A stretch of 40,118 nt of DNA from Acidobacteriota bacterium (GTDB lineage: Bacteria > Acidobacteriota > Vicinamibacteria > Vicinamibacterales > SCN-69-37): contig SCUN01000192.1 of the NCBI GenBank assembly GCA_004297655.1, forward strand, positions 1-40,118. The letters are read 5' to 3'. Numbering within the stretch: position 1 is the first letter of the stretch; each line of letters opens with the position of its first letter. Positions 22,198-33,680 of the stretch are shown in pieces. The notes beneath the pieces are model-generated. The model had not been told where the DNA came from, searched no databases, and saw only the letters and a list, made by a program, of their open reading frames with translations. A program made the translations under genes and the position numbers.

Positions 22198-22461
22198 CTG
22201 CCCAAGTCGCTGGTGCAGTGGGTGCTCGAGGTAGGACTTGAGCCCGCCAAGGTCGTCAAATTCAACGACACTGACGTAGGAATAGGTCTGATCACCAACC
22301 TTGGCCTCATAGCCGGCGCCGATCAGTTGCCGGCGGCCGACCATGGACCTGGCGACCGAAGGGATCTGCCTGAACGCCACTTTCATTGCATCCAGGAACG
22401 CCTCACGATCCGCGTCAGTGGTGGTCGCCTTGGGTTCGAACAAGACGACGTGCGCGATCAT
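22108..22461 (-). CDS. Dabb-type stress-responsive alpha/beta barrel protein
   Basis: MIAHVVLFEPKATTTDADREAFLDAMKVAFRQIPSV..VVEFDDLGGLKSYLEHPLHQRL resembles Dabb (Stress responsive A/B barrel) proteins. Confidence 0.8.
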   Translation of the reverse strand: MIAHVVLFEPKATTTDADREAFLDAMKVAFRQIPSVARSMVGRRQLIGAGYEAKVGDQTYSYVSVVEFDDLGGLKSYLEHPLHQRLGQLFWENCDRTMIVDADCFWLDAKKVSDRQS

Positions 22462-23294
22462 TGCTTGGGACCTCGGGGACCCCGAGGCCCGCGGGGACCA
22501 CGTGGCGGACCGCCGTAGCCCTTCGGTCCGCCGAACTTCTTGGGTCCTGTGCCGAACGACTTGCCGCCGCCGAACTTCTTCGGTCCGCCAAACGACTTCC
22601 GTTCGCCAAACGGCTTTGCGGCGCCAAAGGGCTTGCGCTCACCGAACTTCTTCGGCCCGTCGAAGGGCTTCCGGGCGCCGAACGGTTTGCGATCGCCAAA
22701 CGGTTTTCGGTCGCCGAAGGGCTTGCGCTCGCCGTCGAAGGGCTTGCGCTCGCCATCAAACGGCTTTCGTGCCCCAAACGGCTTTCGCTCACCGAACGGC
22801 TTGCGGTCCCCAAAGGGTTTTCGCTCGCCGAATGATTTCCGCTCGCCGAACGGTTTGCGATCACCAAACGGCTTTCGCTCGCCAAAGGGTTTGCGCGCGC
22901 GGAAGTCGCCCTCCGGCCTCGGCGGACGCGGTGGCCTCGGGATGGCGTCCCCCGCCGGCTCGACATCGCGCGGCCGGCCGAAATTTCGCTCCTTGAACCG
23001 CGCGCGTCTTACGTCGCGCGGGATGTCGTACTTGGCGCGAGGATCCTTGTGTTCGCCGCCAGGACGCCAATCGGGCTTTCGCTCTTTGCGGAACTCTTCG
23101 CGCTTCAGGCCTTCGGCGAGGGCTTCGTCGCGCGAGTTGAAGAACTTCGCGCCGTCAAACCACTTGATCTCGGCATCCGGCTGCGTCCGCTGCAGTTGAT
23201 GCAGCGTCGTTTCCAGCATCGATCGGTCGCTCGAACGAAATGACGTCGGCACGTCGCCCGACACGATCACCCAGTATTTTCCTGCTCTCGCCAT
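22458..23294 (-). CDS. Basic repeat protein: short N-terminal domain plus about 20 RKPFG-like hexapeptide repeats and GPR tail
   Basis: Repeat block maps to about 22461-22900 with units ERKPFG/DRKPFG/ARKPFDG/PKKFG; ATGA overlap with downstream Dabb gene at 22458-22461 supports this frame. Confidence 0.85.
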   Translation of the reverse strand: MARAGKYWVIVSGDVPTSFRSSDRSMLETTLHQLQRTQPDAEIKWFDGAKFFNSRDEALAEGLKREEFRKERKPDWRPGGEHKDPRAKYDIPRDVRRARFKERNFGRPRDVEPAGDAIPRPPRPPRPEGDFRARKPFGERKPFGDRKPFGERKSFGERKPFGDRKPFGERKPFGARKPFDGERKPFDGERKPFGDRKPFGDRKPFGARKPFDGPKKFGERKPFGAAKPFGERKSFGGPKKFGGGKSFGTGPKKFGGPKGYGGPPRGPRGPRGPRGPKQ

Positions 23295-23309: not shown

Positions 23310-24710
23310 CTAGTGCCCGGTTCGTTCCAGGCGCTTCAATTTCTCGATCAGCGTCGTGCGTTTCAGGCCGAGGAGTTCGGCCGCCTGCCGTTTGTTGCCG
23401 TTCGTCTTCGCGAGAGCCTGCCGAATGCGCGTGTGCTCGTACCGTGAGACTTCGTCATCGAGCAGGATGCCTGAGTCCGGCAGCTCCAGGTCATCGGCCG
23501 GACGAACTGCGGTGGTCTGCCGCACATCTTCGGAGAGGTCGGACGCCTCGATCTGCGACCGGCCCGGCGACAGCGCGAAGGCGCGTTCGATGACGTTCTC
23601 GAGCTGGCGCACATTGCCCGGCCAGTCGAACGACATGAGCGCCTGCTGCGCTTCCTGCGACAGCGTCACGCGGCCCCGCGGGGGCGACGCGTCTTTCGAG
23701 AAGCGTTCGAGGAAGTGCTGCGCCAGAAGCGGCACGTCCGCGCGGCGCTCGCGCAGGGCCGGCACGTGCACAGGAATGACGTTCAACCGATAGTACAAAT
23801 CCTCGCGGAACGTCCCGGCTTCGACCATCTTCTTCAAGTCGGAATTCGTAGCCGCAATCACGCGCACGTCGACTTTCACGGTTTGCGAGTCGCCGACGCG
23901 CTCGAACTCGCGCGATTGAAGAACCCGCAAGAGCTTCGATTGCAGCGCGGGGCTCATCGTGCCCACTTCGTCCAGAAACAGCGTGCCGCGATGGGCCTGC
24001 TCGAGCCGCCCCTGACGGTTGGCGACGGCGCCAGTGAATGCGCCGCGCACGTGCCCGAAGAGCTCGGCTTCGAGCAGCGTCTCCGGGATCGCGCTGCAGT
24101 TGATCGCGACAAACCGCTGGCTGCGCCGCGGGCTCGCGTCGTGAAGTCCACGCGCGGCCAGTTCCTTGCCCGTGCCGGTCTCGCCCGTGATCAGCACAGT
24201 GCTGGAGGTCGCCGCGACCGTCTCGAGCAGTTCGAATAACCGCATCATGATCGGCGTCCGGCCGATCATGCCGTCGATGCGATATCGATCGCGCAACTGC
24301 GCGCGCAGATAGGCGTTCTCGGAACGCAAGCGTCGGCGCTCAATCGCGACGCTCAACTCGTGCCGGAGCTCCTCGAACTGGAAGGGCTTGGTGATGAACC
24401 CTTCCGCGCCGATGCGCGTGACCTCGACCGCTTCCCTCACGGTCGCGTACCCGGTGATGACGATGGCGATGATGTCGGGATAGCGGGCGAGGGCCTCATC
24501 GAGGAGCTGCCGGCCGTCGACGCCCGGCATGCGCAAGTCAGTGATGAGGACGTCGAAGGCGAATTCGGCCAGCCGCTCGAGGGCGGCTTCGCCGGTGCCG
24601 GCTTGTTCGACGCGGAAGCCCTGTTCGCCGAGTTGCTCGGCAATCGCCGAACGAAACCCCTCCTCGTCGTCAACAAGCAGCAGGTGAGTGGGGTTCTCGG
24701 CTGCCGGCAT
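23310..24710 (-). CDS. Sigma-54-dependent response regulator (NtrC family: REC-AAA+-Fis HTH)
   Basis: LLLVDDEEGFRSAI..VLITDLRMPGVDG REC; GETGTGKELAARGLH Walker A; GAFTGA; C-terminal TRIRQALAKTNGNKRQAAELLGLKRTTLIEKLKRL. Confidence 0.95.
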   Translation of the reverse strand: MPAAENPTHLLLVDDEEGFRSAIAEQLGEQGFRVEQAGTGEAALERLAEFAFDVLITDLRMPGVDGRQLLDEALARYPDIIAIVITGYATVREAVEVTRIGAEGFITKPFQFEELRHELSVAIERRRLRSENAYLRAQLRDRYRIDGMIGRTPIMMRLFELLETVAATSSTVLITGETGTGKELAARGLHDASPRRSQRFVAINCSAIPETLLEAELFGHVRGAFTGAVANRQGRLEQAHRGTLFLDEVGTMSPALQSKLLRVLQSREFERVGDSQTVKVDVRVIAATNSDLKKMVEAGTFREDLYYRLNVIPVHVPALRERRADVPLLAQHFLERFSKDASPPRGRVTLSQEAQQALMSFDWPGNVRQLENVIERAFALSPGRSQIEASDLSEDVRQTTAVRPADDLELPDSGILLDDEVSRYEHTRIRQALAKTNGNKRQAAELLGLKRTTLIEKLKRLERTGH

Positions 24711-24783
24711 TGGGCTGACGGCATTTTGACACACCGGTGCGGTCTACAGGCGGTTCCGACGCGGGCCGATAGTTTCAGCGAAT

Positions 24784-25056
24784 ATGAACCTGGTCGACCG
24801 CGAAACAGTCTCCATCCCCAGAGCCTGTGAATTGGTGAGCGTCAGCCGCCGAACCATCTACAACTGGATTTCAAGCGGGAAGGTCCAGTACGTGCGGACC
24901 GCCGGCGGGTCGGTCCGCATCTTCGCCGACACGCTGTGGCGGGATCCCGCCGCCGTTTCTCCCAAGGGAGAGGAACTTGACCGACGACCTAGCCCGGCAG
25001 TTTCACCAGCTGAACAACCAACTCGGGGTGATTCTCGCGAACGCCGAATTGCTTGA
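24784..25056 (+). CDS. Excisionase/BldC-like helix-turn-helix DNA-binding protein
   Basis: SIPRACELVSVSRRTIYNWISSGKVQYVRTAGGSVRIFADTLWR matches the winged-HTH excisionase family pattern. Confidence 0.8.
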   Translation: MNLVDRETVSIPRACELVSVSRRTIYNWISSGKVQYVRTAGGSVRIFADTLWRDPAAVSPKGEELDRRPSPAVSPAEQPTRGDSRERRIA

Positions 25057-25168
25057 GCAGCGGGCGACCGATCCTGCCCACAAAGCGCGTGCGGGCCAGG
25101 TCGTCGCCGGGGCGCTCGAGGCCATCACGATCGCCAAACGCATCCGACAATTGACGTCAGCTCAATGA
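24977..25168 (+). CDS. 63-aa stand-alone DHp/H-box-like protein, TTG start
   Basis: FHQLNNQLGVILANAELLEQR resembles histidine-kinase H-box; GGGAGAGG SD-like sequence 5' of TTG; overlaps the HTH ORF by 80 bp in another frame. Confidence 0.6.
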   Translation: MTDDLARQFHQLNNQLGVILANAELLEQRATDPAHKARAGQVVAGALEAITIAKRIRQLTSAQ

Positions 25169-25344: not shown

Positions 25345-25360
25345 TTGGCACTGGCGTTGC
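25345..25360 (+). promoter_or_regulatory. Candidate sigma-54 (-24/-12) promoter upstream of sigma factor gene
   Basis: TTGGCACTGGCGTTGC: GG-N10-GC spacing with TGGCAC and TTGC elements. Confidence 0.5.
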
Positions 25361-25373
25361 CATTACAGGGGGC

Positions 25374-26198
25374 ATGCAGACCACTCCGCTTGCCGCTGCC
25401 CAGTACGACCGCGTCGTCGCCACTCTGCCGTTTGTGGAGTCGCTGGCGCGACGGATGGCCTCGACGATGCCGCACTCGATCGACCTCGGCGATCTCGTGC
25501 AGGACGGCGTGCTCGGTCTGATCGACGCCGCGAATCGCTTCGATGAAGCGCGCGGGATCAAGTTTGAGACGTTCGCGGAGCGCCGCGTACGCGGCGCGAT
25601 GATCGACGCGCTGCGTCGCGATGCCTGGCCGCGGGGCGTGCGCCGGGTGCGTCGCGAACTCGAAGCGGCGCGCGAACAACTGCGGCGCGAACTGGGCGGC
25701 GAGCCAACGATGGCCGATCTGGCGAAGCGCGTCGGCGTCGAGGAAAGCCGGCTCGAGCGCACGATCGTGCGGATCAACACCATTGAGTCGACGTCGGCGA
25801 TGGCCAACGCCGAGACCATCGACCAGTCCACGCTGCCGGCGGTGCTCGTGCCGAGCGAGCCGCCGTCGCCGCATCAGTCCTACGTGCAGACGGAGCTTCG
25901 CGAGCGCATGCGCGCCGCCATGCGCGCGTTGCCGTCGCGCGAACGCCGCATCATCGCGATGTACTACTTCGAGGAAGCGACGATGAAGCAGATCGGCGAC
26001 GAGATCGGCGTGAACGAGTCGCGCGTCTCGCAGCTGCATGCGCGGGCGATCACCCGATTGCGGAAGGCGGTCGGCGTTGGCGCCGACGCGTTCTTCGAGC
26101 CGTCGCGGACGGCGGCGGCCTCCGCGGCCCGGAAAGACAAACCGGCGAAGTCTAGCCGACTGTCTCTCGTGCGACGCGAACGAGATCGCGCAGCCTAA
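25374..26198 (+). CDS. FliA/WhiG-type (sigma-28 family) RNA polymerase sigma factor
   Basis: DLGDLVQDGVLGLIDAANRFDEARGIKFETFAERRVRGAMIDALRRDAWPRGVRR (regions 2.x), IAMYYFEEATMKQIGDEIGVNESRVSQLHARAITRLR (region 4). Confidence 0.92.
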   Translation: MQTTPLAAAQYDRVVATLPFVESLARRMASTMPHSIDLGDLVQDGVLGLIDAANRFDEARGIKFETFAERRVRGAMIDALRRDAWPRGVRRVRRELEAAREQLRRELGGEPTMADLAKRVGVEESRLERTIVRINTIESTSAMANAETIDQSTLPAVLVPSEPPSPHQSYVQTELRERMRAAMRALPSRERRIIAMYYFEEATMKQIGDEIGVNESRVSQLHARAITRLRKAVGVGADAFFEPSRTAAASAARKDKPAKSSRLSLVRRERDRAA

Positions 26199-27693
26199 AG
26201 GGCTTCGCGAGCCAGCGGCATCCGCTCTCCTCGAGGAATCGCTCGGCTTCCGTGCCGGCGACGTCGCCGGTGACGAAGACCATTCGCTTCGACAACGCCG
26301 GCCGCGTCACCGCGAGCCGGCGATAGAGCGACGGGCCGTCGAGTTTCGGCATCTTCAAATCACAGACCACCAGGTCATAAGACTGGCGATCGATCAGCGC
26401 GAGCGCGTCTTCGCCGTTGGTCGCGCGATCGACGACAAACCCGGCGTCGCCGAGCGCATCGGCCACGGCGGTACCCAGTGCCGCCTCGTCTTCCACCACG
26501 AGCGCGCGGGTGCCTTTGGGCACTTCCGGCGCCGGCCGCGCCGGGATCGGCGCGCTCATCCGCAGACTGTTGCCGCCGACCGGCAGTTCGAGCGTGAACG
26601 CCGCGCCGCGGCCGCCGGCGCTGCCGGGAATGGACGCGACGCTCAGGGTGCCGCCGTGTTCCTGGGCGATCGCGTAGGCCACGGTCAGGCCGAGGCCGGT
26701 GCCTTTGCCGACTTCCTTCGTCGTGAAGAACGGGTCGAAGATCTTCGCCTGCACATCCGCCGGAATCCCGGGGCCATCGTCGCTCACTTCGAGCTTGACG
26801 CAGTCGTGCTCGGGCTCGTGCCACGAGCGGAGGATCAGCGTGCCTCGGCCGTGCGCGCCGATCATGGCCTGTTCGGCGTTGATGATGAGGTTGAGCAGCA
26901 CCTGTTGGATCTGATGCGGGTCCGCGAACACCTGAGGCAACCCTGACGCCAGCGCTTCGAGGATGACGACATTGGCGACGCGCTGCTCGTAGGCGCGCAG
27001 CGCGAGCGTGTCGCGGACGACGTGATTGAGGTCCACCATCGTGCGCGTGGTGTGGCGCTTGCGCGCGAACGTCTGGAGATTGCGCACGATGCGCGCGGCA
27101 CGTTCGGCCGCGTTGTGGATGGCGTCGAGGTCGCGCCGCGTGGTCTCGTCGAGCGGCTTGCCGGTCAGGCGTTCGGCGCAGGCCAGCACGGTCGCCAGCG
27201 GGTTGTTGAGTTCGTGCGCGACGCCGCTCATGGTCTGTCCCAGCGCCGCAAGTTTCTCCGCCTGCAGGAGCTGGTGGTACAGATCGCGCGCCTGGTCCTC
27301 GAGCTTCTTGCGTTCGGTGACGTCGCGCATGACGGCTTCGATGCGCAGCGTGCCGTCACGCGGCATCGTGTCGGCGCGGGCGGTGACCTCGACCCACATC
27401 GCCGAGCCGTCGGCGCGGCGGAGACGCAACAGGTAGTCCTGCGTCGAGCCGTCGCGCGCCAATTGCTGAAGGAAGGAGGCTCGCGCCTGGGTATCGACGA
27501 AGCGGGCGGGCTCGAACGGCCGCACATCGCCGGCGGGGACGTCGTCGGCCCACCCGAACATGAGGCGGAGGTGCGGATTGGCGGCGAGCGTGGCGGTGGA
27601 TTCGGCCGTTGCGCCCACGAGGCCGATGAACACGCCCTCGTGGACGGCTTGGAACAGGCGCGCGAACGCGTCGCTTGAAAGGGACGCGGGCAC
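26152..27693 (-). CDS. Hybrid histidine kinase (PAS-HisKA-HATPase-REC)
   Basis: PAS region; [22 protein letters not shown]-box; [65 protein letters not shown]. Confidence 0.95.
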
Positions 27694-31498: not shown

Positions 31499-31924
31499 CG
31501 CGAACGTCATCGTCCCGTGACAGACGAGCTTGCCGTTCACGCGGGCGCGTCCGCTCAACACGCCCATGCGGCTGCGCAGGCGGCGGACGACCGCTTCAAT
31601 CACGACGACATCACCGGGGTGGACGGGCTGATGAAACCGCACGCGCTCGATGCCCGTAAAGAAGATCAGCTTCTCGAGATTCTCCGGCTTCGACAGGATC
31701 AGGATCGCGCCGACCTGCGCGACCGCTTCCGTCAGGATGGTCGGCGGCATCGACGGCTTCTCACCAGACATGCGCGAGAGATACCACTCACTGTGCGTCA
31801 CATTCTTGATACCGACGATGCGCTTGTCGGTTTCGAGTTCGGTGACGCGATCGACCAGCAGGAACGGATACCGGTGGGGCAGAATCCGTTCAATCGCCGA
31901 GTAGTCGAGCGGCAGAGTGAGCAT
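31472..31924 (-). CDS. fabZ: 3-hydroxyacyl-ACP dehydratase FabZ-like
   Basis: ILPHRYPFLLVDRVTELE, MPPTILTEAVAQVGAILIL, RVRFHQPVHPGDVVVIEAVV. Confidence 0.94.
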   Translation of the reverse strand: MLTLPLDYSAIERILPHRYPFLLVDRVTELETDKRIVGIKNVTHSEWYLSRMSGEKPSMPPTILTEAVAQVGAILILSKPENLEKLIFFTGIERVRFHQPVHPGDVVVIEAVVRRLRSRMGVLSGRARVNGKLVCHGTMTFALGDRPASE

Positions 31925-31946
31925 CACTCCAAGTATAGTTAATGAG

Positions 31947-33680
31947 ATGAGTGAGCGGGACATTCTCCTGACGATGTTCGACTTAGGTCGTCAGGTCACG
32001 GCGGTGCTCGACATCAACGAGCTCCTCGAGAAGACCCCGGAGCTGATCCGCCGGCTCATCCCGTTTGACGCCTTCGCGGTCTACCTGTTCGACGAACGCC
32101 GCAACGATCTGTCGATCGCCTACTCGGTCGGCTACCCCGACACCGCCCGCATCCGCATCCGCCTCTCCGAGGGTATCGTCGGCCGGGTCGTCGAGTCCCA
32201 GCAGGCGCTGGTCGTCGGCGACGTGTCATCCGACCCGCACTACATCGAAGTCGTGCCGGGCATGGCGTCGACGCTCGCGGTGCCGCTGATCTACAAAAAG
32301 AAAGCCGTCGGCGCGCTCAACATCCTGAGCCGCACGCGCGATCAGTACTCGGATCAGGACGCCGCGATTCTCCGGCAGTTTGCCGCGGCGGTCGCGGTGG
32401 CCCTGGTCAATGCCCGCATGTTCGAGCGCGAGCGTGCCGACGCGGCCGCGTTCGAAATGCTCGCCGAGATCGGCAAGGAAGTCGCGGCCGTACTCGATCT
32501 CGATCAGCTGTTGTCGAACATCGCGCAACTGACGCGTCGCGTGGTCGACTACCGCACCTTCGGCATCCTGTTGTACGACGATGTGCGCCAGGAGCTCGAG
32601 ATGAAGGTCGCCGTGCAGTACGGCGAAAAGAAAGTGCTGCCGAAGGTGAAGCTCGGCGAGGGCCTGGTCGGATACGCCGCCCTGCATCGCGAAGCCGTGC
32701 TCGTGCCAGACGTCTCGAAAGACCCGCGATACATCAAGGCCGTCGAGGATGTGCGATCCGAACTCGCCGTGCCGATGCTGCTCAAAGATCGATGTATCGG
32801 CGTCTTCGACCTCGAGAGCCCGGAACTTGACGCGTTCACCAAGCGGGACGTCGAGATTCTCACGCTGCTCGCCAGCCAGGCGGCGGTGGCGATCGAGAAT
32901 GCGCGGCTGTACGAAGCCGTTTCACACTCCGAAGCGCGGATGGAAAAGGAACTGCATTTCGCCAAGCGCGTGCAGGCCGCGCTGCTGCCGCTGCAACTGC
33001 CGAAGAAGATCAAGGGCGTCGACGTTGCCGCGTCGTTCGCGTCGGCCCGGGAACTGGGCGGCGATTTCTACGATTTCATCGTGCCGGATTCCAATACGCT
33101 CATCGTCGCCCTGGGCGACGTCTCCGGCAAGGGCGTACCGGCCGCGCTCTACAGCGTATTTGCCGGCGAGTTGGTTCGCGGCCGCACGTTCCGCCGGCGT
33201 TTCATGCCGGACCAATCCACGCCGTCGCACGTGCTCGGGTCGATCAACACGATCCTGCACGAGCGCCAGCTCGAGGAGTACTACTGCACGCTCTGTTACG
33301 CCGTGTTCGACCTGAAGCGGCGAACCGTCACGCTGGCCAATTCCGGCGTGCCGTATCCCGTCCGCGCCGCCGGCGATGCGGTCGCGCAGATTGAATCACC
33401 CGGCGTGCCGCTTGGATCGTTCTATGGAACGACCTACGACGAAATCACGCTGCCGATCGGCAAGGACGACGTGTTTGTGTTTTGTTCGGACGGCGTGTCG
33501 GAAGCGATGAACTCGAAGGGCGAGGAATTCACGTCGGAGGGCGTTATCAAAGTCGTGGAGCAGTCGCGGATACTCCCCGCCCGCGAGATCGTGACGAATA
33601 TCGTCCAGGCTGTCGAAGACCACCGCGCGGGCTTTGCGCCCAACGACGACACGACGGTGGTGGCGGTGAGGATTGGCTGA
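31947..33680 (+). CDS. GAF-GAF-SpoIIE (RsbU-type PP2C) phosphatase
   Basis: Two GAF domains (VGRVVESQQALVVGDVSSDPHY; VGYAALHREAVLVPDVSKDPRY); GGDFYDFIVPDSNTLIVALGDVSGKGVPAALY; CSDGVSEAMNSKGEEF. Confidence 0.94.
   Translation: MSERDILLTMFDLGRQVTAVLDINELLEKTPELIRRLIPFDAFAVYLFDERRNDLSIAYSVGYPDTARIRIRLSEGIVGRVVESQQALVVGDVSSDPHYIEVVPGMASTLAVPLIYKKKAVGALNILSRTRDQYSDQDAAILRQFAAAVAVALVNARMFERERADAAAFEMLAEIGKEVAAVLDLDQLLSNIAQLTRRVVDYRTFGILLYDDVRQELEMKVAVQYGEKKVLPKVKLGEGLVGYAALHREAVLVPDVSKDPRYIKAVEDVRSELAVPMLLKDRCIGVFDLESPELDAFTKRDVEILTLLASQAAVAIENARLYEAVSHSEARMEKELHFAKRVQAALLPLQLPKKIKGVDVAASFASARELGGDFYDFIVPDSNTLIVALGDVSGKGVPAALYSVFAGELVRGRTFRRRFMPDQSTPSHVLGSINTILHERQLEEYYCTLCYAVFDLKRRTVTLANSGVPYPVRAAGDAVAQIESPGVPLGSFYGTTYDEITLPIGKDDVFVFCSDGVSEAMNSKGEEFTSEGVIKVVEQSRILPAREIVTNIVQAVEDHRAGFAPNDDTTVVAVRIG

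Follow-up and report, generated by a model that had tools for sequence, protein, structure and literature searches.

The window, a 40,118-nucleotide stretch of an Acidobacteriota genome of the order Vicinamibacterales, contains a 63-residue open reading frame (24977-25168, +) whose product is assigned by homology, predicted structure and conservation as a stand-alone DHp (HisKA-like) hairpin, here called mini-DHp, with a candidate phospho-histidine at position 10 and an asparagine, Asn14, at H+4. Translation starts at a TTG codon, 3 nt downstream of a Shine-Dalgarno-like sequence read at 24966-24973 (+), GGGAGAGG. The upstream partner gene (24784-25056, +) encodes a small, BldC-like DNA-binding protein of the HTH_17/excisionase type (Pfam HTH_17, 1e-7; NCBIfam excise, 8.5e-9), whose match to the NCBIfam BldC model (1.5e-5) is below the cut-off. 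Divergently encoded is an NtrC-type response regulator with matches to REC, sigma-54 activation and Fis-type HTH domains (23310-24734, −). Downstream of mini-DHp, a sigma-54 promoter, TGGCAC-N5-TTGC (25346-25360, +, 10/10 consensus positions), precedes the gene for a FliA/WhiG-family RNA polymerase sigma factor with its ATG at 25374 (25374-26198, +; NCBIfam FliA_WhiG, 195.9 bits against a cut-off of 189.6). The block closes with a hybrid histidine kinase (26152-27693, −) that, by domain matches, has a PAS-HisKA-HATPase-REC architecture, conserved catalytic and REC residues and no HPt domain.

The short reading frame, singled out in an earlier note from the sequence alone, is a real gene on the evidence of its conserved homologues and its dN/dS values. 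Of 60 genomes searched at the protein level, the window's own among them, 53 encode a strong homologue (E 1e-10 to 1e-20, 44-68% identity), and a search with a family profile (A1, built from 56 sequences) finds exactly one copy in each of 95 of the 107 near-complete Vicinamibacterales genomes. Mini-DHp is under purifying selection: dN/dS lies between 0.06 and 0.32 across six species pairs, with most changes at third positions, and together with the order-wide conservation this rules out a chance or spurious ORF. The protein is short and stand-alone in all relatives examined, with no CA domain, and the 63-residue product itself is devoid of an ATPase domain, as the note had claimed. In the window's genome the upstream HTH frame overlaps mini-DHp by 80 nt in a different frame; in nearly all relatives it ends before mini-DHp, with two overlapping by a few nucleotides. 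The 80-nt overlap is either local or the product of an indel in an incomplete assembly, and an HTH-DHp fusion or a single frameshifted gene is ruled out, as no relative joins the two in frame.

Homology, predicted structure, conservation and synteny all speak for mini-DHp being a stand-alone DHp (HisKA-type) helical hairpin, and the assignment is well supported. Its AlphaFold (AF2) model is a two-helix hairpin (pLDDT 94.4), and the best PDB fold matches include the isolated DHp domains of GacS and ERS1 (TM 0.81-0.85, rmsd 1.1-1.6), although E-values are weak for a hairpin of this length and unrelated ones, EncB for instance, reach comparable scores. Aligned to the DHp of the neighboring kinase, the mini-DHp profile reaches 96% probability in hhalign (E 2e-9) over 48 gapless columns, with histidine on histidine, and a direct count upholds the 10 of 17 identities reported between the H-box HQLNNQLGVILANAELL and that of the window's hybrid kinase. 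Mini-DHp is apparently derived from HisKA kinases. The Pfam HisKA match is nevertheless weak, at 14 bits under a gathering score of 26.9, and no more than 20 of the 56 members give a hit even at E 0.1. Pfam SPOB_a yields one weak match among the 56 members, and a PDB sequence search with the family profile yields none. The HPt profile (PF01627) matches neither mini-DHp at E up to 10 nor any of the 56 members at E 0.1; by profile, mini-DHp is not an HPt-domain protein. The hairpin is expected to dimerize into a four-helix bundle.

The most conserved part of mini-DHp is the face around His10, which carries the phospho-acceptor motif. His10 was kept in 56 of 56 sequences, in line with the conservation anticipated in the note, as were Leu12, Asn14 (the H+4 residue), Leu16, Gly17, Leu20, Ala23, Glu24, Arg38 and Ala49. 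Compared with the window's hybrid kinase, whose HisKA/DHp domain is homologous in fold and H-box, mini-DHp has neither a sensor nor an ATPase domain, has lost the acid at H+1 (acidic in 1/56, Arg in 36) and carries Gln, His or Glu in place of the kinase Pro at H+5. A histidine kinase would have both a HATPase (CA) domain and the H+1 acid. In HisKA kinases, that acid is required for kinase but not phosphatase activity, while the reverse holds for Thr/Asn at H+4 (PMC3510030). Since the H+1 acid is lost and the H+4 Asn is invariant, mini-DHp retains the phospho-acceptor and the phosphatase residue while having lost the autokinase residue along with the ATPase domain.

Genomic neighborhood analysis across 56 loci reveals a constant order of regulator (−), HTH (+), mini-DHp (+), FliA/WhiG sigma gene (+) and hybrid kinase (−), with the regulator present in 53, the HTH gene upstream in 48, the sigma gene downstream in 55 and the kinase in 53, a few of these counts being domain matches to a neighbor at contig ends. 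The co-occurrence of the HTH and mini-DHp pair with the sigma-54 regulator is an order-wide synteny, and the view that a stand-alone DHp protein belongs with this regulator and the hybrid kinase is well supported. The REC Asp and Thr of the regulator are retained in all 42 readable orthologues. Relocation of the kinase and regulator genes in family f5 has left the HTH, mini-DHp and sigma genes together. A low-complexity protein with many RKPFG-type repeats is encoded at 22458-23294 (−), and similar sequence lies near the block in 48 of the 56 loci.

The sigma-54 promoter ahead of the sigma gene matches at least 8 of 10 consensus positions in 55/55 loci and at least 9 in 49, a level of 9/10 that shuffled sequence reaches at 0.7%; it is also kept in genomes without mini-DHp. 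All 21 genomes tested for it, the window's and 20/20 relatives, encode sigma-54. Because the promoter is conserved and sigma-54 is encoded, the output of the block probably runs from the regulator through sigma-54 RNA polymerase to the FliA-like sigma gene. Only 17 of 60 genomes yielded a flagellin, and the window's (82% complete) did not, so a flagellar function for the whole module is unsupported and a regulon confined to flagella is unlikely. A few kilobases downstream of the block, and also downstream of it in several relatives, lies a gene for a GAF and SpoIIE-phosphatase-like protein (31917-33680, +; judged from the translation), which could be another sigma-related regulator.

A hybrid kinase with a C-terminal REC domain and no HPt domain needs a separate histidine carrier, and the block kinase has precisely this architecture. 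The reading that we favor, with some confidence, is that mini-DHp is a minimal DHp-type phosphotransfer protein acting between the kinase REC and the regulator. Phosphate would pass from the kinase His to the kinase REC Asp, on to mini-DHp His10 and finally to the regulator REC Asp, as a His-Asp-His-Asp relay, and the phosphorylated regulator would then fire the sigma-54 promoter before the FliA/WhiG-type sigma gene. Phosphotransfer, its direction and the sigma gene as target are what we infer from several features that appear to favor such a relay: the His-on-His profile homology to the kinase DHp combined with invariance of His10 and loss of the H+1 acid in 55/56 sequences; the modeled hairpin with DHp structures among its closest folds; and the order-wide synteny with its conserved promoter and with sigma-54 in every genome tested.

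The best functional clue comes from lineages that lost mini-DHp. Three of them still have the regulator, the sigma gene and the kinase. In G032, the kinase ends right after the ATPase domain and the REC is gone. In genus g191, the four genomes lacking mini-DHp carry Glu, His, Asn and His in place of the Mg-binding REC Asp, whereas the REC of G387 is apparently intact. Genus g191 (L193-L196) lost the HTH and mini-DHp together and G387 (L202) lost mini-DHp only; both kept the sigma-54 promoter and the sigma gene. Against these stand 70 loci with mini-DHp and a readable REC, in which no REC is lost and 68 keep the full quintet; the 70 include G356, whose REC is partly unreadable through a frameshift, and G040, in which the REC Lys is changed to Glu and mini-DHp is retained. 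A REC loss in G356 is ruled out, the frameshift being one of assembly, and kinase truncations in G009, G050, G023 and G348 are apparently contig-end run-offs. At the lineage level, a Fisher test of REC decay against mini-DHp loss gives p ~0.005, a rough value based on three losses among what we count as ~60 independent lineages. Because the REC is lost or decayed in two of the three lineages without mini-DHp and kept where mini-DHp is present, the two tend to be retained together, as expected if one passes phosphate to the other; this favors the relay. Were both intermediates lost, the kinase could be left to signal to the regulator directly, which seems to be the case in G032, a pairing that is conceivable because mini-DHp and the kinase DHp are homologous.

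Other observations run against the relay. G387 has an apparently intact REC without mini-DHp, G029 keeps mini-DHp without a recognizable orthologue of the block kinase (many other hybrid kinases are present), and the REC Lys to Glu change in G040 leaves mini-DHp in place. ChpT and Spo0B have Asp at H+1, whereas mini-DHp mostly has Arg. The mini phosphotransferase suggested in the earlier note is the best-supported inference on account of REC loss or decay, but a phosphatase role is compatible with the H+4 Asn.

That role is the chief rival, unlikely though it seems to us overall: a stand-alone phosphatase would use the invariant Asn to remove phosphate from the NtrC-type regulator, or else from the kinase REC, and so set the threshold of the sigma-54 switch. 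The isolated DHp of EnvZ is a phosphatase, and the Thr or Asn expected at H+4 is there in every member. Loss of the H+1 acid with Asn kept at H+4 (56/56) is the kinase-off, phosphatase-kept pattern of CrdS, HK853 and others (PMC3510030). His10, however, is equally invariant; for phosphatase activity, this histidine is nearly dispensable in CrdS and needed in PleC (PMC3510030). Nor would a phosphatase acting on the regulator alone lead one to expect the kinase REC to decay where mini-DHp is lost. Relay and phosphatase activities could also be combined in mini-DHp.

It is improbable that mini-DHp is a kinase inhibitor or modulator forming mixed dimers with the homologous hybrid-kinase DHp in the style of RetS-GacS. 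That homology, the GacS DHp in RetS complex among the nearest folds and a weak excess distance correlation between mini-DHp and the kinase DHp (partial r 0.22) all point that way, but conservation peaks on the face around His10, an invariant histidine is superfluous for an inhibitor, and REC decay is left unexplained. The inhibitor alternative raised in the note therefore found no specific support. Least credible of all, and very improbable, is an anti-sigma-like or co-regulator hairpin that partners either the sigma factor or the HTH protein and has given up phosphotransfer: no feature is more constant than adjacency to the sigma gene (55/56), which holds with the HTH gene in f5 even where kinase and regulator lie elsewhere, but conservation is highest in the phospho-acceptor motif, several lineages keep mini-DHp without the HTH, the sigma gene persists where mini-DHp is lost, and the sigma factor gives a negative partial correlation, in a mirror-tree (distance-matrix) comparison too weak for naming a partner.

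Among known systems, mini-DHp would work most like ChpT, Spo0B and PhyT. Like the ChpT/Spo0B type, it is a DHp hairpin without autokinase that is encoded with a hybrid kinase and a regulator; unlike them, it has no C-terminal ATPase-like domain. HPt proteins (PF01627) share its expected role as a histidine carrier between two REC domains, but their bundles are monomeric and unrelated in sequence to DHp. Spo0B carries an extra C-terminal domain, unlike mini-DHp. In Bacillus sporulation, two Spo0B hairpins form the four-helix bundle by which phosphate is relayed from one REC protein to another (PMC3433190, PMC5231405). ChpT, of the Caulobacter CckA-ChpT-CtrA pathway, is likewise a DHp-hairpin histidine carrier without autokinase and serves a PAS-type hybrid kinase with a C-terminal REC, as proposed for mini-DHp (PMC3433190, PMC9981736). 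It retains a degenerate Bergerat ATPase-like domain (PMC3433190), whereas mini-DHp is a bare hairpin, and its output is an OmpR-type rather than an NtrC-type regulator. PhyT, from the Sphingomonas general stress response, is a kinase-like protein once deemed a phosphatase and then shown to be a relay histidine carrier for an alternative sigma factor; unlike mini-DHp, it is membrane-bound and acts via the single-domain regulator SdrG and PhyR (PMC5898713). A literature search of limited coverage, with few subscription journals, turned up no earlier account of a stand-alone DHp family.

The fuller proposal, to which we give even weight for and against, is a lineage-wide phosphorelay in mostly flagellin-less bacteria, in which a bare DHp hairpin would be the second histidine carrier between a hybrid kinase and an NtrC-type regulator that acts on a sigma-54 promoter and a FliA/WhiG-like sigma factor; this would represent a minimal kinase-to-phosphotransferase step, with no CA remnant. 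If this is true, DHp domains can shrink to ~60 residues without ceasing to serve as dedicated relay carriers, and an orphan hybrid kinase of a poorly cultured order would have gained its missing partner. In that case, counts of phosphotransferases may be too low, since such proteins fall under Pfam thresholds, and the losses with and without REC decay would offer a natural test bed for the collapse of relays into two-component systems.

Beyond the class, a related 80-residue protein with an H-K-L-R-N motif (profile E ~1e-7) occurs in two Acidobacteriota genomes of family f21. This relative lies in a flagellar cluster, and bare DHp proteins may thus be older and more varied than the Vicinamibacterales module. 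The two f21 copies (L117:5954-6196, −, and L118:5884-6150, +) share 66% identity and the HKLRN motif, and are encoded between flgE-like and fliL-like genes (names read from translations).
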